64,000 bases of DNA, from the NCBI GenBank assembly GCA_038874435.1, contig JAVZCK010000001.1, positions 1 to 64,000 of the forward strand, read 5' to 3'. Position 1 is the stretch's first letter, and each line of letters starts with the position of its first letter. Source of the DNA: Thermoplasmata archaeon (GTDB lineage Archaea > Thermoplasmatota > Thermoplasmata > Lutacidiplasmatales > SKW197). The position numbers and the translations under genes are program-made. Of this stretch, positions 6,030 to 59,046 are shown piece by piece. The notes beneath the pieces were generated by a model. It did no database searches and was not told where the DNA came from. It saw only the letters and a list, made by a program, of their open reading frames with translations.

Positions 6030-6390
6030 GAAGTATTTCAACTGCAACGCAAGAGAAAGAGCATGCTTTGAGGCAGGAATCAAGCTGGCAACTGTATATC
6101 ATCAGTTTGTTGGCACACCTGTGAGCATGGAAAATGTGGAATCGCTTGAGAAGGCAATAGAGAATGGAGTCAGAATCCAGCCATTCGTCAAGGATGTGAA
6201 GGTCCAGATTCGGAAGGAAAAACTTCGCACAAAGCGAGACGAATATGACTATCTGACGCTAACAGGAAGCATGCTCCAGGTTCTCCTCGTGATACACTAC
6301 GAGAATGTGGAAGTCATTGCAGAGATGAAACATATTGAGGAGATGGATTATCCGCTTATGATGGTAAAGGAAGTTAGGGAGATTACTTAG
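6016..6390 (+). CDS. mptD: Archaeal-type dihydroneopterin aldolase (MptD, DUF372)
   Basis: This is a 124-residue soluble protein starting MDRAKKYFNCNARERACFEA and carrying FEAGIKLATVYHQFVGTPVS. That segment matches my recollection of the archaeal DUF372/MptD family, which converts 7,8-dihydroneopterin to 6-hydroxymethyl-dihydropterin for methanopterin or folate-like cofactors. It overlaps pssA by 14 bases and is the last gene of the operon. Its position beside lipid genes gives no functional support. The assignment rests on the conserved central motif and the length. Confidence 0.75.
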   Translation: MDRAKKYFNCNARERACFEAGIKLATVYHQFVGTPVSMENVESLEKAIENGVRIQPFVKDVKVQIRKEKLRTKRDEYDYLTLTGSMLQVLLVIHYENVEVIAEMKHIEEMDYPLMMVKEVREIT

Positions 6391-6895
6391 CATAGAGAAA
6401 AGTGTGGTATTGATATTCTCCATCTACTAGCAATCTCTTGGTTTCCACAATGAAATCTTTGCCAGAATCGAGAGTTAGCGAAGGGTGATTTGTGTCCTGG
6501 ATATAAATATCACTTTTTGTTGGTTCTGGTGTCAAAATTGTCCATTTCCAAAGATGAATTTTAGCCGCAAATTTGAATGAGACGGCGGCATTCTCTCGCC
6601 TTAACACTACCTGGTCTTTCGTAAATTCAAGTTTGTAGGCTTTGCCATTGATTAAACCAGGCAGGTGGGTGCCAAACGGTGCTTTTGTATCGTAGGTAAA
6701 GGTCATGTTTGCATCTGCCTGAATTGAAATCATGTCATTCACGCCATTTCCAATCACATTGACCACATTATTCATCTCAGTGTAGGTGTAGTTTGTTTCT
6801 CGCTGGTTCAAAAAGAACCCCACTGCAACTGAAATCAGGATAAGCACAGTCGCTGTGACCACAACTTTTGAAGAGACGAACTCCCACATGTTCAC
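6383..6895 (-). CDS. Membrane-anchored extracellular protein, third gene of the pilin-like cluster
   Basis: This is a 170-residue protein with one N-terminal hydrophobic helix (about residues 10-28, VVVTATVLILISVAVGFFL) and an otherwise soluble, beta-rich extracellular-type remainder. I do not recognise the family. Unlike its two upstream neighbours it lacks a Lys-Gly processing site before the helix. It starts within the stop region of the gene upstream (4-base ATGA-type overlap), so the three are translated together. It overlaps mptD by 8 bases tail-to-tail. A role in a surface structure with its neighbours is inferred from the operon. Confidence 0.7.
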   Translation of the reverse strand: MNMWEFVSSKVVVTATVLILISVAVGFFLNQRETNYTYTEMNNVVNVIGNGVNDMISIQADANMTFTYDTKAPFGTHLPGLINGKAYKLEFTKDQVVLRRENAAVSFKFAAKIHLWKWTILTPEPTKSDIYIQDTNHPSLTLDSGKDFIVETKRLLVDGEYQYHTFLYAK

Positions 6896-7401
6896 ACCGG
6901 AAGCACCTTTATTTGAACATAAAAGTCAGGGTAAGAGCCGTCGCCGTCAATGTCGTTCGGGTATGTCAGTTTTTTCAAGCTCAAGGCGTACTTTGCACCC
7001 CCAATCTCAAGGGTGCCGCCCGTATCAGAGCACATTGGAATGTTCTTGGCACCATCCAGCACCGCATAACTTCTTATTGTGGCATAGATCTTGTATTCAA
7101 TGCGGTATTTTTCGTCTGAGCCACTGAGAGAGCCACCAATGTGTATGTATGCGGTTTCCGCAGGAAATTCTATGTCCACACGAATATCTGTGTTTTCACC
7201 GCCTCTGTAGACCTGGATAATCTGCATTTTCAATTCGTTAATTCTTGCATCAAGCTGATTTTCCTTCTGGATTCTCGTGAAGTACATGAATCCACCAATA
7301 ATGATTGGAATAGTGATCCCAAGGATGACCATAATTATCAATAGCCGCATTGGCAGATCGAGCACACCTTTCTTTGTTAATCTCTTTCTCATTTTTTTCA
7401 C
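6892..7401 (-). CDS. Pilin-like membrane protein
   Basis: This is a 169-residue protein with a basic N-terminus, a KKG site at residues 10-12, then VLDLPMRLLIIMVILG leading into a hydrophobic helix. The layout resembles archaeal class III signal peptides, which are cut after the glycine by a prepilin peptidase. The C-terminal part is soluble and predicted beta-rich. The motif KGxL(D/E)xLP is shared with the gene just upstream, implying duplication or common processing. It overlaps both neighbours by 4 bases. The exact pilin family is not recognised. Confidence 0.7.
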   Translation of the reverse strand: MKKMRKRLTKKGVLDLPMRLLIIMVILGITIPIIIGGFMYFTRIQKENQLDARINELKMQIIQVYRGGENTDIRVDIEFPAETAYIHIGGSLSGSDEKYRIEYKIYATIRSYAVLDGAKNIPMCSDTGGTLEIGGAKYALSLKKLTYPNDIDGDGSYPDFYVQIKVLPV

Positions 7402-7817
7402 CTCACAACTACAATCGTTTCATGAAGTTCCTGGGGTGCTGTGCCACCTGTGTAGGTTGCAGTCACCCTGATGCTGCCCGAGTCCTCGTAGCCATCTATA
7501 ACTGGCGTGATTGTCACTTTTGCATAGCCCTTGGCATCTGTTCTTGTGATTTTATCAGCGTTGATTACATTCACGCCCTTCAACTCAATCACCACATCCT
7601 GGAGTGGGGAGTTCTTGTTGTCATAAGCCCAGAATTCAATTGTGCTCTGGATGTTGTTTGGAATCTGCTTTGGCTCTACTACAAGGGTTTTCAGATTGGG
7701 TTTATTAAAGTACTGGAGATATCCCCAGATAATCCCTGTGCCCAGAGCAATTATTATAACCATGATCAGCAGGTAGAGGGGAAGTCCCTCTAAGGCGCCT
7801 TTCCTGTTCCTCAACAT
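7398..7817 (-). CDS. Pilin-like membrane protein with Ig-like domain
   Basis: This is a 139-residue protein that starts MLRNRKGALEGLPLYLLIMV, a short basic leader with Gly7 ahead of a hydrophobic helix, as in archaeal prepilins. Residues about 45-138 look like a bacterial Ig-like (Big_1-type) domain, with TDAKGYAKVTITP and GSIRVTATYTG. It is the first gene of a three-gene operon. It has its own TATA-like box at 7841-7850, which suggests a leaderless transcript separate from that of the giant gene 33 bases upstream. Confidence 0.72.
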   Translation of the reverse strand: MLRNRKGALEGLPLYLLIMVIIIALGTGIIWGYLQYFNKPNLKTLVVEPKQIPNNIQSTIEFWAYDNKNSPLQDVVIELKGVNVINADKITRTDAKGYAKVTITPVIDGYEDSGSIRVTATYTGGTAPQELHETIVVVR

Positions 7818-7850: not shown

Positions 7851-10800
7851 TTACAGTTTGCGTTTTCTGCGATGCCGCAATATTATTACAAGCAGTAACG
7901 GCAAACTTAGCAGCACAATCAAACTCTGTTCTGATGTCGTCACCCAGTCCTTATACTCGTCATTATCATCAGGCACACCAGTGCTCTGGGTGCGATTTAT
8001 CCCTTCATCGGTTGTTATGTCAAATCCATTTAAATTCACTGGTCCATCGTTCCACTCAAGATTGGCTGCGGCGATGCCACCGTCTGAAGGCGGAGGATTG
8101 CCCTTTGCATCTGTCCAGTTCACGAAGTCCACTATACCATTGGGTGCTTTGCCTGCAATGCCTGATGTAGTGTCGTTGAGGAATAGGTAATCTCCGGAGG
8201 TTGCTATGGATTTGAAGAAGCCTACCCCTACAGAAATTTCGAGCCATTGCCCTGGGTTAATGGTGACTGGGCCAGTGGAGTATGAATTTCCACTTGCATT
8301 CAGGTAAAGATTGGAGTAGATTAAGAGCATGGTGTCATTATTGTACAAGGCAACCTTTTGGCTTATTGTAAAGAGAGGATTGAATGTGATGTTGGCAATC
8401 AGAAGCTTTGGTTTATGGCATGTGAGGAAGACACTGTAAACTGTTGAGGAATTTTGTGAATTTGTTGTTTTGAGCGTAATATTATACTGGAAAAAGCGTG
8501 CAAAGAAAGAAGAAGGAAGAGCTTCAGTAGTTGTGGATACTCCAGAACCGCTATATGTTGCAATGGAACTCCATGAGGTACTGCTCAAACTCCCAGTATC
8601 GTTTGCACATCTGACAAGAATTTCTGCGCTTGTTCCTGTGAAGTGCGTATCATGTGTCCATATGAGTTGTTGCCAGAGTGCAATTCTGCCCGCATCGTAA
8701 ACAGGGGATTCATAGTAGCCAGTACTGGAATAACCAAAACGAGAAGTGAAGATTTGTTGGGTAATGGTATATGGAGGATATGGTAATATACCTGCAGGAT
8801 TACCGGGATAACCTGGAGGATTGTTTGTGTCACTTCCGCCAGCACCGGGATTTCCGTTAACAACTCTGAAACCAGTAGTGTCTATATTCCCGGCATTATC
8901 ATAATATATCCAGATCACACCAGCAGCACCTGCACCGCCGCCACCGCCACCGCCATTTCCTCTGTTGCTAGAACTTCCACCATTGCCACCATTTCCACCA
9001 GAAACATCAATTTTTGCTGAGGAGGTTACGGTAACATTACAGCCAACAATAAGAACACCGCCACCTGCACCGCCGCCACCGCCACCACCAGCACCATCGA
9101 CAGCATTCAAACCATTATTGCCATTTGTACCACTTGCATTTATCGTTCCTGCAATGTAAATGTTCCATGCATTCAGGATAACTGCACCACCACCATCCCC
9201 ACCACGACCTCCAGCTGCTCCGTTAGCACCTCTGCCGCGGCCTCCGCCACCGCCACCAGAGCCTGGTTTCACATCAAGAGCACTAGGAGCAGTGTCATAA
9301 GCAATCCCTCCATACCCAGGACTGCCATTACCGTTAGTTTCACCGTGAATTCCTCCATCCCCTCCATTTACCTGGTGAGCAGCTCCACCACCACCAGAGC
9401 CACCTTCATTATTATCCTGGGTAGTAATTGCGGCTCCACCGCCACCACCATTGGCGTTTCTGTTACCCTGGGCTCCAGCATTCCCTGTGTTCCCATCCTG
9501 CCCCTGGTATGCTGCAACATCCGCACCAGCCCAATATCCTCCAGCACCACCCACTCCTCCTTTACCTACCAGATAGATTGTGCCTCCTGCCTCAATTTCT
9601 ATTACTTCCGCATAAATTTTTAGTGTAACCATATACTGGGTTGAGGTTGTGTTAGAAATGTTGCCTGTGCTTGTGATTCTCAAATGTCTGAAATAGTATG
9701 TTCCATTTGCCCAGTTCACGGAGGCGCTAACAGTGAGGTTTCCATTTGCATCTGTGTCGGGTGTTCCATCTCCGTTTCCATCTGCAGGTGTGTAAGCCAC
9801 TGTATTATTTTCCAGCCGTAACGCACCTTTTGTGGTCGAAGTGTAGCGGTCGTTCACAAGCACTACCTTGTTATAACTGCCTGTAAATTCCGTGAGAAGT
9901 GTGGAACCATAACTTCCATCACCGCCAACCCTTACACCTTCCCTTCCCACAAGATACGCAATCTCGCTTGCGTCCTTCTGTCCGAGCCAGTTACTCATCT
10001 CAAAGTAGAATTTGGAGTTTCCATCAATGCCTGGTAGTGTGTCAAGCCCAACACTGAACTCTATTTTCCCATCGCTCAAACCATGAGCAATGTTTGGATT
10101 CTGGATTTCCTCTGCCTTAACACCATTCTCCCACTTCCATGCCTTTGCACTGATTACCTGCCCATTCCTCCCTTGTAACTCAATCAGATAACCATGGGAA
10201 ATCATTGCTGGATTGAAGGTGTTGATTGTGGAGTTCATCAAGTCAATGTAAACTCTTGCCACATCCATGCCAAGATTTTCTTTTATCACCACTGGTATCG
10301 GTGGTCCCGGCTGCACTGGTGGTCTGGCACCAAGCACAGGGATTTCGCAGCCAGCCAGCATTGTGCCATCAACAGCCATGTAGAAGTATGCCTTGCCTGC
10401 AATTGCACTTGCATACTCCCGCAAATCAATGTTTTTATCAGCATCACCAGACACATCAACGCCTTTCTGCACACTCTGCCAGTCACCAAATGCACCGTCT
10501 ATAACAATGCCCGAAGGCAGAGAACCAAAGTATGCCTTTCCACCATTGCCCACAATTCTGTAAGGGACATTTGTGTCCACGGTGGAAACTGCAAACGCAT
10601 ACGCATTACCATCACTCAAGCTCTTTGCCTTGCATCTCACGGTAAGTTCTTCGTTCACTCCCAAATCTTTTTTCGGCAAATCCAGGTTTGCATTCTCCAC
10701 GCTCAAACTCTCCACATGCACCGCCTTGCCCTTTGCAACCAGTCTTAGCTCGAGAACATCAGCATCTGCATTCACCACATCATTGCCAATAAAATTCTGG

Positions 10801-12038
10801 TAAACCACCAAACTTCCTTCTGTTTTGCCCACTAGTGCCATGCCCCGCTTCTCTGCATAAGCACTGCCCTCATAGTGTCGCATCAACACCAAACTCACTG
10901 GGTTGTTCAAGCCAGCAATTTTGGCATACCCTTCAACAAGCTTATCGGTCTTCTCAGCTCTTACCTCGCCAGTATTCTCCCAGGCACTGTAATTCAATTC
11001 TGGCTTTGAGGAAGCACTCTGTTCAATGAATCTTGAGGCAACGGCAGAGCGGATTTCACCCGCATAACCAGAAACTTCAATCTTCGCATCTGCGCCCAGA
11101 TTCTCTATTTTGTAGCCGGTGTTAGAATCTGCATCTGTATCCACAAAAATTATCAAAGCATCGTAGCCATTGTTAGCACCATTGAACAAGGTGCCAGAAA
11201 CCCTGCCGTAAAAGTATATCCGCTCGTTTTCGTAGTAAACACTGTATTCGTTCAGGTTGATGTCCATGTTGAACACGGGTTGAGTATCTGTGTATCTTGC
11301 AATACCCTCCCAGTCCTCTAGGCTACCATCTACCTTAATTCTACCAGCGGGCTGAAGAGCATACCAGAGGACAAATACAGATGATAAAATCAAGAGTAAC
11401 GCCAAGAATGCCACACCAATCTTTGTACCTGGCGATATTTTCTTTGTCTTCCTTGGTGAGGGTTTTGCCTTAAGCCCATTTATCAAACCTTCTTTGGATT
11501 TTACCTTCTTCTCGAAGACAATCTTAGCTTCCTTCCCTTTCGTTGTTTCGAGCACCTTCTCCACTTCTTCTAGTTCTTTTTCCATTTTTGCAATCTCTTC
11601 TTCGGTTTCTGTCACTTCCTTTTTCCCAACTTCTTCCGCTTTTTCTTCTTTCCCAGCACCTTCTTCTTTTTCTTGGGGCACCGTTTCCTCTGGCTTCGCT
11701 TCTCCCTTCTTTTCTTCATCGCCAATAATCTCCGGCTTAGTTTCTCCACCCTCGGGCTTAATTTCCTTATCTTGTTCGCTAGTACCTTCGACTTTAGCTT
11801 CCTCTTTCTTTCTTTCCTTTTCTTCTAGTTCAGCAAAATAATTTTTGATAAGTGTTGCCCTGCTTTCTCCGATACCTTTTATATTTGCCAGTTCCTCAAA
11901 TGATGCCTTTTTCAGGTCATCTACAGTTTTATACCCCATCTCATACAGCTTCTTTGCTTTTGAAAGGCCTACACCCGGAATCTTCGTGAATTCTGCTAGT
12001 GCACGGTTCATTTCATCCATGTTCTCTTCTTCAGACAT
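7851..12038 (-). CDS. Giant surface protein with cytoplasmic helix-hairpin-helix head, Gly-rich module and two membrane ends
   Basis: About 1395 residues. The order seen is as follows. First, a helix-hairpin-helix pair (IPGVGLSKAKKLYEMG and IKGIGESRATLIKNYF, about residues 20-68). Then a Glu/Lys-rich linker to about 205 and one transmembrane helix at about 206-228. Next come ectodomain repeats with DGSLEDW (about 240) and DGAFGDW (about 480). Then a very Gly-rich, PGRS-like stretch (about 820-1055), a beta-rich region with a possible lamin-tail-like end, and a C-terminal hydrophobic helix with a basic tail RHRRKRKL. The ectodomain is homologous to that of the protein at 57.1 kb. The HhH pair is the type that binds DNA or RNA non-specifically. 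ATGs at 12053, 12044 and 12038 are possible; the TATA-like box near 12069 puts transcription near 12043, favouring 12038. The function is unknown. Confidence 0.85.
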   Translation of the reverse strand: MSEEENMDEMNRALAEFTKIPGVGLSKAKKLYEMGYKTVDDLKKASFEELANIKGIGESRATLIKNYFAELEEKERKKEEAKVEGTSEQDKEIKPEGGETKPEIIGDEEKKGEAKPEETVPQEKEEGAGKEEKAEEVGKKEVTETEEEIAKMEKELEEVEKVLETTKGKEAKIVFEKKVKSKEGLINGLKAKPSPRKTKKISPGTKIGVAFLALLLILSSVFVLWYALQPAGRIKVDGSLEDWEGIARYTDTQPVFNMDINLNEYSVYYENERIYFYGRVSGTLFNGANNGYDALIIFVDTDADSNTGYKIENLGADAKIEVSGYAGEIRSAVASRFIEQSASSKPELNYSAWENTGEVRAEKTDKLVEGYAKIAGLNNPVSLVLMRHYEGSAYAEKRGMALVGKTEGSLVVYQNFIGNDVVNADADVLELRLVAKGKAVHVESLSVENANLDLPKKDLGVNEELTVRCKAKSLSDGNAYAFAVSTVDTNVPYRIVGNGGKAYFGSLPSGIVIDGAFGDWQSVQKGVDVSGDADKNIDLREYASAIAGKAYFYMAVDGTMLAGCEIPVLGARPPVQPGPPIPVVIKENLGMDVARVYIDLMNSTINTFNPAMISHGYLIELQGRNGQVISAKAWKWENGVKAEEIQNPNIAHGLSDGKIEFSVGLDTLPGIDGNSKFYFEMSNWLGQKDASEIAYLVGREGVRVGGDGSYGSTLLTEFTGSYNKVVLVNDRYTSTTKGALRLENNTVAYTPADGNGDGTPDTDANGNLTVSASVNWANGTYYFRHLRITSTGNISNTTSTQYMVTLKIYAEVIEIEAGGTIYLVGKGGVGGAGGYWAGADVAAYQGQDGNTGNAGAQGNRNANGGGGGAAITTQDNNEGGSGGGGAAHQVNGGDGGIHGETNGNGSPGYGGIAYDTAPSALDVKPGSGGGGGGRGRGANGAAGGRGGDGGGAVILNAWNIYIAGTINASGTNGNNGLNAVDGAGGGGGGGAGGGVLIVGCNVTVTSSAKIDVSGGNGGNGGSSSNRGNGGGGGGGAGAAGVIWIYYDNAGNIDTTGFRVVNGNPGAGGSDTNNPPGYPGNPAGILPYPPYTITQQIFTSRFGYSSTGYYESPVYDAGRIALWQQLIWTHDTHFTGTSAEILVRCANDTGSLSSTSWSSIATYSGSGVSTTTEALPSSFFARFFQYNITLKTTNSQNSSTVYSVFLTCHKPKLLIANITFNPLFTISQKVALYNNDTMLLIYSNLYLNASGNSYSTGPVTINPGQWLEISVGVGFFKSIATSGDYLFLNDTTSGIAGKAPNGIVDFVNWTDAKGNPPPSDGGIAAANLEWNDGPVNLNGFDITTDEGINRTQSTGVPDDNDEYKDWVTTSEQSLIVLLSLPLLLVIILRHRRKRKL

Positions 12039-12064
12039 ACCCATCGATACCATATCAACTCCAA

Positions 12065-15865: not shown

Positions 15866-16378
15866 TTGGTGAACTGTATGAGAGAGATCAAAAAAATAGC
15901 GCTGCTTGGAGAAGGTGCAGTGGGCAAAACAGCTTTAATCCAAAGATTTGTATATAATACCTTTAACGAAACCTACATCCAGACAATTGGTGCAAGGATA
16001 TCTAAGAAATCGGTTATGGTCGGAGAGGATGAAATAATTTTAATAATCTGGGACATCTTAGGACAGCGGTATCACGACGAACTCCACAAAGGACACTATT
16101 CAGGCACCGAAGGAGCATTGTTCGTATTTGATATCACACGCAGAGAAACATTTGAAAAACTGGAATCCTGGATTTCATCGCTGAACAATGCTGTCGGAAA
16201 GGTTCCAGCTATTCTTCTAGCTAACAAGTCAGACCTTCCCAGCTGGCAGGTGAGTCTGGAGGAAATAGAAAATTTTGCAACCACTAAAGGAATGCCATAT
16301 TTTATCACAAGTGCAAAAACCGGTGTGAACGTTAATGAAGCATTTACACGAATGGGTGAACTCCTGTTGAGGAGGTAG
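15866..16378 (+). CDS. Ras-like small GTPase
   Basis: This 170-residue protein carries all GTPase motifs: G1 GEGAVGKT (15-22), G3 WDILGQ in place of the usual DxxG, G4 NKSD and G5 TSAKTG. It looks like a Rab/Ras-type rather than a translation GTPase. The start is TTG with an alternative ATG four codons on (15878). The gene is followed after 5 bases by a V4R-like/DUF835 protein, with a GGAGG ribosome site formed by its own last codons. The pair probably acts in one signalling or positioning pathway, by analogy with MglA-type switches. Confidence 0.88.
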   Translation: MVNCMREIKKIALLGEGAVGKTALIQRFVYNTFNETYIQTIGARISKKSVMVGEDEIILIIWDILGQRYHDELHKGHYSGTEGALFVFDITRRETFEKLESWISSLNNAVGKVPAILLANKSDLPSWQVSLEEIENFATTKGMPYFITSAKTGVNVNEAFTRMGELLLRR

Positions 16379-16383
16379 AAAAA

Positions 16384-17313
16384 ATGCCAGTTCAGTTAAT
16401 AAGTGTGCCTGCAAGTGCCATAACAGACCTCGCGGATGAGATTAACCTTGAGATTGATGTGGAAGTAGCAAGGGAAATCATGTACAGATTTGGCTACCGT
16501 TGCGGAAAATCAGTGTTAGAGGGTATTGAACTTGTCACAACCTTCGACGAAGTGCCAAAAACTGTCTCTGAGCTGATGGAACAAACGGGCATTTGCAAAG
16601 TGAGCATCAAAAAAATATCAGGGAGTGTGCTTGAAATTAACTTTCTAGAATTGTATGCCGAAATTAATTTTACGCTTGGAGCAATTGCAGGCATCATCTC
16701 CGAAATTCAGAAGATTCCATTTGAATGCATCAAAGAGGATGGAAAATACTTTGCTAGAGAAATATCCCCCACTGCAGCAACATATTCTCCAACTCCATCA
16801 GTGACTCCGCAGATTCCTCCAGCTACTGATAAAATAGGGATTAGTGAGACAGGTATATTCTATCTCTATGAAGGAAACGATGTTTCCAAACTCTACAAGG
16901 GCTTGAGAAAGTTTATATCCGCAGGGTATCCCACGCTTTGTGTTACACGAGAGTTTCCAGAACATATCAAGAAAAATTTTGGAATTGACACAAGGTTTCT
17001 CTGGCTCACAGGTGCAGATAAGAAGGAGTATGACTATGCAGTTCAGCCCACAAATCTTGCAGGGATTTACAGTGATGTAAAGGACTTCATTATCAGCAAC
17101 AAGAACGCAGTGGTGTTTATTTCTGGGATTGAATACATAATCTCTAATACATCCTATTCTCAGGCCCTTAGATTCCTCCAAAGCCTGAGGGATAGAATTG
17201 CGCTTTCGCAGGCAATTGGTGTGCTCTACCTCGAGCCAGGTACACTTGAAACAAGGGATGTAAAGACCTTTGAGAGAGAACTGGTCGTCACTAAATGGTT
17301 TGATTTACTTTAG
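16384..17313 (+). CDS. V4R-like plus DUF835 two-domain protein
   Basis: A 309-residue soluble protein. Residues about 25-120 resemble a V4R-type small-ligand domain (YRFGYRCGKSVLEG early, FTLGAIAGIISEIQ late). A Pro/Thr-rich linker (about 125-145) follows. Residues about 155-309 match DUF835, with FLWLTGADK, VVFISGIEYIISN and the terminal LETRDVKTFERE. DUF835 is a common archaeal domain of unknown function. It sits in an operon with the Ras-like GTPase and just ahead of fhs. The same DUF835 core appears in the STAND protein at 51.6-54.8 kb. The V4R call is weaker than the DUF835 call. Confidence 0.75.
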   Translation: MPVQLISVPASAITDLADEINLEIDVEVAREIMYRFGYRCGKSVLEGIELVTTFDEVPKTVSELMEQTGICKVSIKKISGSVLEINFLELYAEINFTLGAIAGIISEIQKIPFECIKEDGKYFAREISPTAATYSPTPSVTPQIPPATDKIGISETGIFYLYEGNDVSKLYKGLRKFISAGYPTLCVTREFPEHIKKNFGIDTRFLWLTGADKKEYDYAVQPTNLAGIYSDVKDFIISNKNAVVFISGIEYIISNTSYSQALRFLQSLRDRIALSQAIGVLYLEPGTLETRDVKTFERELVVTKWFDLL

Positions 17314-51612: not shown

Positions 51613-54600
51613 TCACGCCCTCATCGTTTCATAAAGCTTCCGGAGATAGTAAACTTTTGCACCTATCTTCTCGAACATTGAATATGCCTTTTCAAAACAC
51701 TCAATTGCTTCATCCTTCCTAAGCTGGCTTTTGTAGAGCAAACCCAGTTCAAAGTAGGTTTCTGCAAGTCTGTGTGGAAGATTGAGTTTCTCAAGAATTT
51801 CAATAGAGTGCTTGAAGTTTTCCTCAGCTCCAACAAAATCGCCTTTGAGTCGTTTTGCAACCCCCATGTATCTATGAACACTTGCCAGACCGTGTAGGTC
51901 TCCAATGCGCTTCAGATTCACATATGCTTCCTTCAGGTACTCTTCGGCTTTAACTGTATCACCTTTCCCTCTAATGTAGACCTCAGCAAGGTTAAACATT
52001 GTCCAGTATGTCTCTCTGAAATAGCCAAGTTTCTTGAAAATATCAAGTGCCTTTTCATAGCACTTCACAGAATTCTCAAAATCTCTGACTTCAAGATAGG
52101 CGCCGCCTATGTTATGGTAGGCCCTTGCCATTTCGTAATAAAAGTATTTTTCTTCTGCATACTTGATTGCATCACTGTATTCTGAGATTGCAGAATTGAT
52201 ATCGCCAAGTTCTGAGTATATCATCCCCGTCTCAATCTTGAGATTCACAAAAAGAGAGAGATCGTTTACCATTTCTGCATGATGAAGTGCATCCTTTATG
52301 TACTGTTTTGCTTTCTCATACTCCCCAGTTCTCCAGTAAATCAGAGCTAGGCCCTCCTCAGCATAAGCAATTCCTGATGCATCGTTGAGTTCTCTTGCAA
52401 TTTTCAAGCTCTCCTCATAGTTCTTTATTCCCTCTAACCACTCGCTTCTGTTGTAGTGCACATGCCCTATTCTCTCATAAAGTTTCATCAATTTTACTGC
52501 TCTATCCTTCTCGCTGAGCAAATTCCTTGCAATGTTCAGAGCAGCACCATATGCCTTGAGCGAATCGTTCCATCTAGCAAGGATGTCGTAAATTGTGCCC
52601 TTCAGCACATACATGTCAATCCTGCTGGAAAATGCGATCTCAGGCATATTTTCTAGTAATTCCAGAATATCATAGATGTAACCCTGCTGGAGCAAGCGGA
52701 AGGAGTTAGTAGAGATTACATCCACCAGTTTCTCAAAGTCCTTGGTTTTGTAGAGATGATAGGCACACTCAAGGTAAACTCTTTCTGAAAATGTGCCTTC
52801 TCTGTTGATTATGTCCAGATAATAATGCGCCGCTCTTTTGTGGGCATCGTTTTTCTCCTGGAGAGACATCATGTTGTAGAAAAATTCTCGCACAAGTTCA
52901 TGAACTTCATAGTGGTTGTTAGAGACATGGGTAAGCAGACCTCTGTTTATCAGGTTTGTAATGGTTTCTGTGGTGTATCCAGGAAATGTGTAAGTTATCG
53001 TATCCAGTGAGACGGGATGTCTGAAGACAGACACATTTTTCAAAAAGGATTTTTCTGTTTCTCCTAGTTTCATGAAAATTTCGTTGAAAATGAACTTGTA
53101 GATGCCGCTGCTCGTCTGTTTCACATCCTCTGGAGATTTTAAAAATTCAAGTGCAAGAGGATGCCCCTTGGTGAGAGCATAAATCTGCTCAAACATTTTC
53201 TCAGGAAAACCCTTCAATTTGAGAAACTCAAAAGTACTCTCCTTGTCCAAGCCCTTTAGCTCAAGTTCAAGCACAAGCTTTCGCTGTTCCACATCCCTTA
53301 TGTCGTAGAACGGGACAATGTGTCTAGACAGCAAAATAAATTTCACACCTTCCATCCCCGCAACCACATCCAGCAGCGAGGTGAAAAATTGTCTGATTTC
53401 TTCATTGACCTTCTGAAAATCATCTATAAATACAATAAGCCCTGTGTTCTTCAACTCTCGTTCTAGAATGCCTAGAACTTCTCCAATATCTATTGACGAC
53501 TTTGCCTCTATGTAATTCTTGAGGTTGTGGCGTTTCAGCAGAAACAGAATCTCGCTTAATTCAACAACAATTGTCCGCAAATTCACCCAGTCGTAAATTC
53601 GGAGCCAGAATACATTGCATTTTTTCACATAATTTCTTGCCACTTTTGCTCCGAGCGTTGTTTTTCCCATTCCAGCAATTCCGTGAATTATCATAAACTT
53701 ATGTGTTTTAGAATTTATGAATTCATCAATCTTTCTGAGCTCTTCCTGTCTGCCAAAGAAGTGCACAATTGCAGGAATTTTTGCGTGGAAGCTTGTAACC
53801 TCATCTGAAATTTTTTCCAGAAATTCGGAAAGGGAAGGCGTACCAGGCACGGTTGCAGGTTGTGGCATAATTTGCGGTTTCTCTTGGGTTGGCTCCGGAG
53901 TTTTTGTTTCCTTTACCCTGCTCACCCCATCTTCTCTTATTACCTCAAATTCCCGTTCAAGAAGGGCAAGGAAGCTTGGATCCACTGCTGCTGGTGAGAG
54001 CGGAATTGCCAGAGTGAGATTGTTGGAAATTGTGAAGTCCTCAATCATATGGATGAACTTTATAATCGGGTCGAGGCCATTCTGGGCAATCAAATACTCA
54101 AGCCCGTCAATTATAACAAAACCTGTCTTCATTTCCTCTGCAAAACTCTTGATTATAGAAAAAATTCTCACTAGGTTCGTTGCACTCACAGAACCCTCAC
54201 TTTCAATCCCGCTCAGCCAGTAAATTTTCGCCTTATCATCTCCGAGCAAGCTCTTTATTCGTTGGGGTGGTATTCTAGAAAGAAAAAGACAGTTTTTTCC
54301 TTGGAGCTCCCTTCTCAGCAAAGAGAACACAAATTCCTGCTTTGAAAACTCAATCAGATAACACACACCTTCTATCAATGTCTTCTTTCCCTCTGGCACG
54401 GGAATTTTCTCCTCTTTTCGCTGCACTACTTCCTCCTTTTTTGCGACCTCCATAACCTCTTTAAGAATTTGTTCCTCTTTTTCCTCTGGTAAACCAAAAA
54501 TCCATTCCACTGCCTTCACATCATCCCTTATCTTTTTTGCATGTGCTATGCCTGGTGTTGTGAGAAAATATACTTTTCTCCTTCGCTCCGAACCAATCAC

Positions 54601-54810
54601 ATGGGCAAGCTTTTCCTCAATGTATCCCTTATCTAGAAGGCCTTTGAGAGTTCTGGGCACATGACTTCGCAGAATCCCGACCGCCTCTGCAATTCCATCT
54701 TGCGTTACTGCAAACGGCACTTCAAAATGGTCCACATACTTAGTATATTCATACAGGTGCAGCAACACTTTCTCTGCGGCGGTAAGTTTTATTCTGTGTC
54801 CATTAGCCAT
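51613..54810 (-). CDS. wHTH-DUF835-STAND ATPase-TPR regulator
   Basis: 1065 residues. In order: a MarR/archaeal-type winged helix (about 8-85, TLKGLLDKGYIEEKL); a DUF835 domain (about 125-290, with IYWLSGIE and FVIIDGLEYLIAQNG); a Pro-rich linker; an NB-ARC-like STAND ATPase (GIAGMGKTT about 375, LIVFIDDFQ about 458, RHPVSLDTITY winged helix after it); and about eight TPRs (about 690-1060). STAND proteins couple TPR sensing to ATP-driven activation. Here the N-terminal wHTH suggests transcription control. The same DUF835 core occurs in the gene at 16.4 kb. The signal and target genes are unknown. Confidence 0.85.
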   Translation of the reverse strand: MANGHRIKLTAAEKVLLHLYEYTKYVDHFEVPFAVTQDGIAEAVGILRSHVPRTLKGLLDKGYIEEKLAHVIGSERRRKVYFLTTPGIAHAKKIRDDVKAVEWIFGLPEEKEEQILKEVMEVAKKEEVVQRKEEKIPVPEGKKTLIEGVCYLIEFSKQEFVFSLLRRELQGKNCLFLSRIPPQRIKSLLGDDKAKIYWLSGIESEGSVSATNLVRIFSIIKSFAEEMKTGFVIIDGLEYLIAQNGLDPIIKFIHMIEDFTISNNLTLAIPLSPAAVDPSFLALLEREFEVIREDGVSRVKETKTPEPTQEKPQIMPQPATVPGTPSLSEFLEKISDEVTSFHAKIPAIVHFFGRQEELRKIDEFINSKTHKFMIIHGIAGMGKTTLGAKVARNYVKKCNVFWLRIYDWVNLRTIVVELSEILFLLKRHNLKNYIEAKSSIDIGEVLGILERELKNTGLIVFIDDFQKVNEEIRQFFTSLLDVVAGMEGVKFILLSRHIVPFYDIRDVEQRKLVLELELKGLDKESTFEFLKLKGFPEKMFEQIYALTKGHPLALEFLKSPEDVKQTSSGIYKFIFNEIFMKLGETEKSFLKNVSVFRHPVSLDTITYTFPGYTTETITNLINRGLLTHVSNNHYEVHELVREFFYNMMSLQEKNDAHKRAAHYYLDIINREGTFSERVYLECAYHLYKTKDFEKLVDVISTNSFRLLQQGYIYDILELLENMPEIAFSSRIDMYVLKGTIYDILARWNDSLKAYGAALNIARNLLSEKDRAVKLMKLYERIGHVHYNRSEWLEGIKNYEESLKIARELNDASGIAYAEEGLALIYWRTGEYEKAKQYIKDALHHAEMVNDLSLFVNLKIETGMIYSELGDINSAISEYSDAIKYAEEKYFYYEMARAYHNIGGAYLEVRDFENSVKCYEKALDIFKKLGYFRETYWTMFNLAEVYIRGKGDTVKAEEYLKEAYVNLKRIGDLHGLASVHRYMGVAKRLKGDFVGAEENFKHSIEILEKLNLPHRLAETYFELGLLYKSQLRKDEAIECFEKAYSMFEKIGAKVYYLRKLYETMRA

Positions 54811-57093: not shown

Positions 57094-59046
57094 ATGCCAT
57101 CAACTTGCAATAATTGTGGTGCTGAGCTTCCCGCAGCTGCGACTGTTTGCCCAAAGTGTGGCAATCTAGTCACTCTTGTTTCTGCGGAGGAACGCGATAA
57201 GAAACTGAAGGAACTTGCCTCTCTGCTTGAACTTGAGGAATCTGAAGAGGAGGTAGAACCAAAGCTCACAGAAGGACCTTCTGCCATGTATGGAAAAAAA
57301 GAGAATGGAAGAGTTGGTTTCACCAATGGAAGAGTAAATGGTCTGAGTGAGAGGACAGGTTTTACCAATGGAAAGAAGAAAGGAATCGAACGCAGGGTTT
57401 ATGTTGAGAAAAAAAGAACAGTCATTGCATTGGCCGTGGTTCTTTTGATTGTTTCTTCTATACTTCTCGTTTATTTCATGCTTCCACAACCATCTGGAAA
57501 GATTGGAATTGATGGCAATTTCAGTGACTGGGATGATGTGCACAAGACCTCTGTAGCATCAGCTATAACAAGGGATTCTATTGCACCTGTGGAACTGGCT
57601 ATGCTGGAAGAGGAGAAAACATTAGCATTCTATGTGAAGGTGAGGGGCACAATCTTTGAGGGTGCACCCCAGATAGTGGCTGAGAGAATTACCGATGGCT
57701 GCTACATACTGGTAGATGCTGATAGAAATCCAGATACGGGCTATTCTGCCCTTGGTTATGGATTTGACTACAAGATTACCGTATTCGGAGAGAGCGGAAA
57801 TGTGAGAAGCAGCAGTGTTTATGCCTATGGAAGCACAGAAAATAGAATTAATTGGTCTGCCTGGAACATGGTTTCTTCCGCTAAAGCAGCGAATTCTGGT
57901 TCGCAAATGGAACTTCAAGTGAGCAAAACCGCAGTATCTTTCAGCGAGAATTTTACAGCCATTCTCATAATGAAATCCTGGGATGGGCTTGCCTCTGAAC
58001 CCTTCCTGTTTTCAAAAACAGGGATTTACATTGAGGCAAAGGTATTGGCAGTTGCTCCAATGGTGCTGAATGATGCGCCAGAGTTTCTGAAGATTGAACT
58101 ATGTGCCAAAGGCGGTGATGCCCTTCTAAACCAAATTTCGTTTAAAGTTCTGGGTAATGCGAGAAATTACACCCTTGCTCTAACCGATGGAACTCGAGAA
58201 CTTGGAAGCGCTTTCGTTGGAGAGGAAGATACTGTTAGAATAAATGCAGGGAACTATAAACTGAATAAAAATACAATTGTCACACTCATCCTTACTGGAA
58301 ATTTAAGTGGTGTGAGTGTCGGTGGCACTGCGGGTTTCAGACCGGCTGGACCTTCTAGTATTGATGCTAGTGCCCAGGTTTTGCTAAGAAATCCATCTAC
58401 TCCTAATGGAAATTTTGTTGGTTACTACCAGGAAGTCCCGCAAAACCCAGAGGTGGACGGCGCGTTTGGGGAGTGGAAGGAAGTGACCCAGGAAACGACC
58501 AGAGTTTTAAATCCAAATGTGGACATAAAGGAGTATGCGTTTTTGTTGGGAAACACGCTGGGAATGTATGTTGGTGTTGAAGGTAGAATTTTCAATGGGG
58601 AGTTAATACCCGAACGCACGCCGATTGTTGGCACCGGTAGTGGCCAACAGCCAACATCTGGCTACATTTCAGGTGAGGATGTGCTTCGTGTCTATCTCTA
58701 CACGACTCTTTCTTACATCAGCCCAGATTACATGGTGGAAATCTCAGGATTGGATAACTGCGTCAAAAATGCTGCATTTTATACTCAGGTTAACGGAACA
58801 TGGGTCAAAATTCAGGCAGTGAATGCAAAAATCTCAGAATGGCAGGTGGAATTTGAAATTCCAAATGTAGTGAAAAATACATTTTTCTATGTGGATGTGG
58901 CATTCAAGGACTGGAACAGTTCAAGTGCAAGCAGAGTGGTGCTGAGTCCAGGCGTGAACGAAGATGTGCAAATTGTGATAGTGATTCCAGTGCTTCTGAT
59001 CGCAACCTGGATGATTTGTAGTAGAAGAGAAGAAAAGCATGATTGA
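57094..59046 (+). CDS. Surface protein with cytoplasmic zinc-ribbon head, homologous to the 12-kb giant
   Basis: 650 residues. An N-terminal zinc ribbon (CNNCGAELPAAATVCPKCG, 5-23), an acidic linker with two GFTNG repeats (about 75-93), a transmembrane helix (110-130), and an ectodomain with DGNFSDW (140-146) and DGAFGEW (about 455). A final helix near the C-terminus ends in basic residues (CSRREEKHD). Its ectodomain aligns by eye with the protein at 7.9-12 kb: DADRNPDTGY matches DTDADSNTGY and NVDIKEYAF matches NIDLREYAS. It overlaps the next ABC ATPase gene by 8 bases. The function is unknown. Confidence 0.88.
   Translation: MPSTCNNCGAELPAAATVCPKCGNLVTLVSAEERDKKLKELASLLELEESEEEVEPKLTEGPSAMYGKKENGRVGFTNGRVNGLSERTGFTNGKKKGIERRVYVEKKRTVIALAVVLLIVSSILLVYFMLPQPSGKIGIDGNFSDWDDVHKTSVASAITRDSIAPVELAMLEEEKTLAFYVKVRGTIFEGAPQIVAERITDGCYILVDADRNPDTGYSALGYGFDYKITVFGESGNVRSSSVYAYGSTENRINWSAWNMVSSAKAANSGSQMELQVSKTAVSFSENFTAILIMKSWDGLASEPFLFSKTGIYIEAKVLAVAPMVLNDAPEFLKIELCAKGGDALLNQISFKVLGNARNYTLALTDGTRELGSAFVGEEDTVRINAGNYKLNKNTIVTLILTGNLSGVSVGGTAGFRPAGPSSIDASAQVLLRNPSTPNGNFVGYYQEVPQNPEVDGAFGEWKEVTQETTRVLNPNVDIKEYAFLLGNTLGMYVGVEGRIFNGELIPERTPIVGTGSGQQPTSGYISGEDVLRVYLYTTLSYISPDYMVEISGLDNCVKNAAFYTQVNGTWVKIQAVNAKISEWQVEFEIPNVVKNTFFYVDVAFKDWNSSSASRVVLSPGVNEDVQIVIVIPVLLIATWMICSRREEKHD

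Follow-up and report, generated by a model that had tools for sequence, protein, structure and literature searches.

Giant surface proteins of Thermoplasmata-type archaea with an inner helix-hairpin-helix head that probably links the cell surface to gene-control machinery

CadC and ToxR are membrane-anchored one-component regulators that combine a cytosolic head of the DNA-binding type, one transmembrane (TM) segment and a sensing ectodomain. ComEA, which acts in DNA uptake, associates a helix-hairpin-helix (HhH) domain with a TM helix, the HhH lying outside the membrane. KaiC and DUF835 have been proposed as archaeal signalling domains (PMC5847659), the idea of a KaiC/DUF835 signalling hub being that of Makarova, Galperin and Koonin (2017, as cited in PMC5847659). 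How the surface signals to genes in archaea without many two-component systems is a largely open question; in PMC5847659, histidine kinases number just 3 and response regulators 4 across 11 Thermoplasmata genomes.

The window analysed here is a stretch of 64,000 nucleotides from a Thermoplasmata archaeon. It contains the gene of a 1,400-residue protein, P0001, that had been read from its sequence as a giant surface protein carrying an HhH pair on its cytoplasmic side, and as a tether between the chromosome, or mRNA, and the cell envelope. The features of the locus, together with a second family member encoded in the window, are as follows.

7851..12053, minus strand: gene of the giant surface protein P0001, 1,400 aa
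11844..11993, minus strand: (HhH)2 domain of P0001, aa 21-70, hairpins IPGVGLSKAKKL and IKGIGESRATLI (Pfam HHH_5, PDB phmmer, AlphaFold, Foldseek)
11439..11828, minus strand: predicted cytosolic Glu/Lys-rich linker of P0001, aa 76-205, 32 K/R and 39 D/E, with a basic patch at its end
11469..11492, minus strand: juxtamembrane [TIV]NG motif, one copy in P0001 (EGLINGLK), identified by motif density versus other ORFs
11358..11438, minus strand: TM1 and flank of P0001, aa 206-232, N-in by charge, a helix in the AlphaFold model
10734..11348, minus strand: extracellular beta-sandwich no. 1 of P0001 with the IDG-x-DW motif (alignment A2, AlphaFold), DOMON/CBM9-like by resemblance only
9954..10541, minus strand: second copy of the P0001 IDG-x-DW domain, limits approximate (second HMM match, aa 514-568)
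8910..9587, minus strand: Gly-rich segment of the P0001 ectodomain, aa 823-1048, 38% Gly
7854..7934, minus strand: C-terminal TM of P0001 (aa 1374-1392) and basic tail RHRRKRKL
6383..7817, minus strand: three pilin-like genes (7398-7817, 6892-7401 and 6383-6895), the first beginning 34 bp past the P0001 stop
57094..59046, plus strand: second family member, 650 aa, with a zinc-ribbon head, NG motifs, a TM and the same ectodomain

The ATG at 12038, chosen as the start in the original prediction, is an alternative in-frame start. The C-terminal TM and basic tail (residues ~1374-1400) had been missed, and the figure of about 1160 residues outside the cell agrees with the ectodomain of ~1,150 residues found between TM1 and the C-terminal TM. 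A CBM9/DOMON label for this ectodomain found no confirmation: Pfam gave no match and Foldseek retrieved generic beta-sandwiches, with a glucodextranase at rank 12. The three short pilin-like genes downstream overlap one another on the strand of P0001, and their matches to DUF7266 and Big_1 are weak, below cut-off.

P0001 carries an HhH domain of the DNA-repair type. Its residues 21-70 match Pfam HHH_5 with an E-value of 5.5e-11 (43.2 bits for a curated cut-off of 27), and together with an HHH_2 match that is also above cut-off (5.8e-10) the matched region spans residues 21-77. In a phmmer search of the PDB the top match of P0001 was to haloarchaeal eL32, through the N-terminal extension of that protein (7.8e-9), further relatives being RAD51, a Ski2-type (Hel308) helicase, NusA and DisA. 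AlphaFold, run on 13 relatives, models the domain as a five-helix (HhH)2 with a core pLDDT of ~91; compared with the PDB by Foldseek, the model matches the RAD51 N-domain, ERCC1-XPF, Hel308/Hjm, the NusA C-domain and FANCM-FAAP24 with a probability of 1.00, the E-values being limited by the short chain so that none reaches 1e-3. These Pfam, PDB, AlphaFold and Foldseek results establish that the HhH is genuine, and the HhH pair originally assigned to the N-terminus is thereby confirmed. The accompanying statement that HhH pairs bind DNA or RNA non-specifically was too general, since the best fold match of the model is the set of C-terminal repeats of NusA, which are known for protein contacts.

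The N-terminus of P0001 is predicted to lie inside the cell. The net charge of the 25 residues before TM1 exceeds that found after it in all 18 members from the same genome (mean +7.0 versus -1.6), and of 109 sampled relatives 107 likewise have the higher charge before TM1. Sequons for N-glycosylation occur at 2.2 per 100 residues in ectodomains and at 0.24 in heads, a difference of about nine-fold. Topology had been named as a refutation test when a cytoplasmic HhH was first put forward; both the positive-inside charge and the distribution of sequons support that placement.

P0001 has a large paralogous family, on which the original prediction had not remarked. A search of its own genome with HHH_5 yielded seven giants (849-1,848 residues) with an N-terminal HhH and TM1, the other matches being RadA, Hel308, Hef, an IleRS-like paralogue and a membrane protein with zinc ribbons and TPR. 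When the first 420 residues served as the model, each of the two genomes of the genus gave 17 matches. The TM plus ectodomain model (A2) puts the membership in the window's own genome at 18 to 19; across the class it matches 70 of 349 genomes and 31 of 94 genera, and it also matches genomes from other classes of the phylum. The shared plan comprises a cytosolic head, a juxtamembrane [TIV]NG repeat, a basic stop, a TM, tandem beta-sandwiches with IDG-x-DW and a variable ectodomain; P0001 has the homologous TM and first ectodomain, and an NG motif before the TM. At least one [TIV]NG precedes TM1 in 101 of 109 members, and at least two do so in 89 of them. In the window's genome the motif reaches 24 per 1,000 residues in juxtamembrane segments, versus 0.55 in other ORFs (~40-fold).

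The heads of the family are swappable and include HhH, zinc ribbon, TPR, degenerate KaiC (for example GPSGNEK), DUF835, SAP and winged HTH. Within the window's genome only some members bear an HhH; the heads of the rest consist of zinc ribbons, DUF835, KaiC-like, TPR or coiled-coil segments, or of the NG repeat alone. Sixty heads were read directly across the class. In-house models applied to 109 heads, a sample enriched for the KaiC cassette described below, counted zinc ribbons in 75, HhH in 33, TPR in 31 and KaiC-like domains in 18, and the SAP (PF02037) and winged-HTH (PF01022) heads of relatives pass curated cut-offs. HhH and fused KaiC were found together in 0 of the 109 heads (hypergeometric 0.0008), but this mutual exclusion was set aside as evidence because the sample is cassette-enriched and the relatives are not independent.

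Several other proteins and gene neighbours were noted in the course of this survey. A 768-residue protein (L025:7136-9442) with several zinc ribbons, an HhH, one TM and a C-terminal TPR displays the head vocabulary without the giant ectodomain, and a 1,065-residue protein of the window (51613-54810, minus strand) fuses elements of the same vocabulary: HTH-like, DUF835, AAA/STAND-type ATPase and TPR. A tandem pair of family members occupies L091:2547-18001, the first having 3,768 residues with KaiC-like and DUF835 domains in its head. The IleRS-like paralogue (L020:7221-10883 and L109:850-5142) combines a relative of the tRNA synthetases with domains of the signalling type, having two HHH_5 and a C-terminal DUF835, as assigned by Pfam for L020 only and by the in-house HhH model for L109. 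A Ras-like small GTPase gene, identified by sequence, lies beside a DUF835 protein gene in the window (15866-17313, plus strand); at L022:1734-2585 a Ras/Roc GTPase follows an HhH giant, and at L219:2299-2850 a Ras-like GTPase is located near another.

Both HhH motifs of P0001 have canonical GhG hairpins (IPGVG and IKGIG), accompanied, as in most relatives, by [KR]A[KR]. Among 30 distinct HhH heads, GhG is kept by 18 in the first hairpin and by 23 in the second, and a basic [KR]A[KRQ] follows the first GhG in 20. In about a third of HhH members the hairpins are eroded: this is the case of the L026, L021 and L028 types, whose HhH domains are still 89-93% identical between species, and of cassette members of f18 and f15. 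Comparison of the two congeneric genomes also shows the HhH to be the segment that has changed least, hairpin-eroded paralogues included, with a dN of 0.06 as against 0.18 for the linker, 0.21 for the TM and 0.13 for the ectodomain (dN alone was compared, dS being saturated and the dN/dS ratio therefore unused). Since the HhH is kept after hairpin erosion, protein contacts are probably its role in those members. The HhH of P0001, to judge from its sequence, could serve DNA contact, protein contact, or both. Its core is near neutral, with a net charge of +1 to +2 versus +4 for Hel308 domain V, which is a weak criterion for DNA binding because the HhH of RadA itself is at -4.

The gene neighbourhood of the HhH members was then considered. 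Giants with HhH, TPR or zinc-ribbon heads come after KaiC and winged-HTH genes in four genomes, and in about nine families of the class the gene of an HhH member is directly preceded by those of a KaiC ATPase and a tandem winged-HTH protein. When the winged-HTH protein was searched against 151 genomes of the class and the best 22 loci were read, KaiC lay upstream of the winged HTH in all 22 (53-84% identical to the query, the query itself aside) and an HhH match (E <= 0.01) lay downstream in 18, that of L220 being taken from a separate reading of the locus. The downstream genes readable in full (f5, f7, f15, f16, f18, f19, f21 and f22) encode giants with the NG repeat, TM and IDG-x-DW ectodomain; the HhH of the cassette giant is eroded or under threshold in f15 and in some of f18. 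In the KaiC of the cassette the Walker A motif is intact (GSSGAGKT). As widely conserved neighbours, KaiC and the winged HTH point to regulation, and the KaiC-like domains fused in cis to other heads of the family provide a Rosetta-stone argument for coupling between head and KaiC. KaiC and tandem winged-HTH genes are absent directly upstream of P0001 on the same strand. The window's genome has KaiC (60% identical) and an adjacent winged HTH as a lone pair, with no giant beside it; this candidate cassette was rejected, the next gene being on the opposite strand.

By its sequence P0001 is a member of a family of giant receptor-like or adhesin-like surface proteins of Thermoplasmata-type archaea. 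I suggest, with a probability of roughly one half, that this family consists of modular surface receptors whose heads are coupled to a KaiC/winged-HTH regulatory complex. The ectodomain would bind a surface ligand or a neighbouring cell; the head would dock near the membrane onto the KaiC/winged-HTH complex, and the state of the surface would then affect transcription. The HhH would provide the docking surface, for protein partners in some members and probably for DNA too where the hairpins are canonical, as in P0001. Within the genus of the window, KaiC and the winged HTH persist as a unit of their own, the HhH giants having multiplied elsewhere. Relatives of P0001 share an operon with a gene regulator and an ATPase of the signalling type, from which it follows that the inner head probably links the cell surface to gene-control machinery. 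Against the coupling model, P0001 itself lies outside the cassette, the ectodomain fold could be placed in no known family, the cassette could reflect co-regulation instead of a complex, and direct DNA contact is favoured by the SAP and winged-HTH heads as well as by the canonical hairpins.

The main rival of this model is that canonical heads, the one of P0001 among them, bind DNA directly. Taken as a chromosome tether, in which the GhG hairpins of the HhH would bind DNA non-specifically and the nucleoid would be held, perhaps with the help of condensin, by a protein fixed at the surface, it is rather unlikely, though still one of two live readings. It draws on the hairpins and basic residues kept by P0001 and most distinct heads, on the resemblance of the HhH to Hel308 domain V and RAD51/RadA, on the DNA binders (Hel308, RAD51/RadA, XPF) among its closest solved or soluble relatives, on the SAP and winged-HTH heads, and on the paralogue L019, which starts some 42 bp downstream of scpB in a row of smc, scpA and scpB, an order shared by the congener. 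This last neighbourhood is suggestive but genus-limited: no HhH giant was found after scpB in a further 19 genomes from the order and 13 from the class, some contigs ending early, and a condensin link was rejected as a general feature. In f19 (L204:2151-6626, L205:7964-12439, L211:7712-12187) smc-scpA-scpB is followed by the gene of a ~1,491-residue protein without TM, coiled-coil-like by eye, a possible extra condensin partner. The low core charge, weak criterion though it is, and the conservation of hairpin-eroded types also argue against a tether, and the widely conserved neighbours point to regulation. Gene order supports KaiC/winged-HTH coupling better than the tether, even though P0001 itself lies outside that operon. 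Of the original interpretation, the HhH identity, the cytosolic placement and the candidate undescribed system stand, whereas a chromosome-to-envelope tether is possible but unproven, and no link to mRNA was found.

A more ambitious version, somewhat less likely still, is a trans-envelope system present across the phylum, in which giant adhesins with interchangeable nucleic-acid-binding heads (HhH, SAP, winged HTH) link the surface physically to the chromosome under the control of the KaiC ATPase; if true, it would be a prokaryotic counterpart of surface-to-nucleus coupling. The HhH might instead be a structural module that homo- or hetero-oligomerises, as in XPF-ERCC1, and gathers giants beneath the membrane, with neither signalling nor DNA involved. 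The rank of ERCC1-XPF among the fold matches, the mixture of canonical and eroded paralogues in one genome and the TPR-rich heads are consistent with this, but the conserved KaiC and winged-HTH operon would be left unexplained, and I consider it improbable. A role linked to RNA or the ribosome, such as co-translational targeting of very long proteins, is suggested by the eL32 match and by the two HhH domains of the IleRS-like paralogue in the same genome; it is very improbable, given that no ribosomal or RNA genes were seen to recur next to HhH members and that most family members are equally long without an HhH.

The coupling of heads to KaiC and winged HTH thus remains the preferred reading. 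The original observation is real and more general than had been recognized: widespread giants whose operon also encodes a KaiC ATPase and a regulator of the winged-HTH type are concrete, testable candidates for surface-to-gene signalling, and the juxtamembrane NG repeat is a simple handle to find them. Every single domain is known already, but their combination, the NG repeat and the operon are apparently undescribed, no description having been found in the open-access literature searched, which supports the claim of a candidate undescribed system.

Like archaeal KaiC/DUF835 signalling proteins, the giants have a KaiC ATPase in their operon and degenerate KaiC, DUF835 or TPR in their heads; here, however, KaiC is joined to giant TM surface proteins whose heads are of the HhH, SAP or winged-HTH type, a connection that the passages of PMC5847659 concerned with KaiC and DUF835 do not mention. 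In sequence and fold the P0001 head resembles Hel308 domain V and the N-terminal HhH of RadA/RAD51, but these are soluble DNA enzymes without a membrane part. With ComEA, P0001 shares the combination of an HhH and a TM helix; its HhH, however, is predicted to lie inside the cell and precedes the TM, and an identification with ComEA was rejected on this ground and on an NCBIfam comE match of 22 of 152 bits, far under cut-off. The giants resemble CadC and ToxR in having a cytosolic head of the DNA-binding type, a TM and an ectodomain, but differ from them in that the head is an HhH, in most cases accompanied by zinc ribbons or TPR, that a separate gene usually encodes the winged HTH, and that the ectodomain extends over 500 to several thousand residues.
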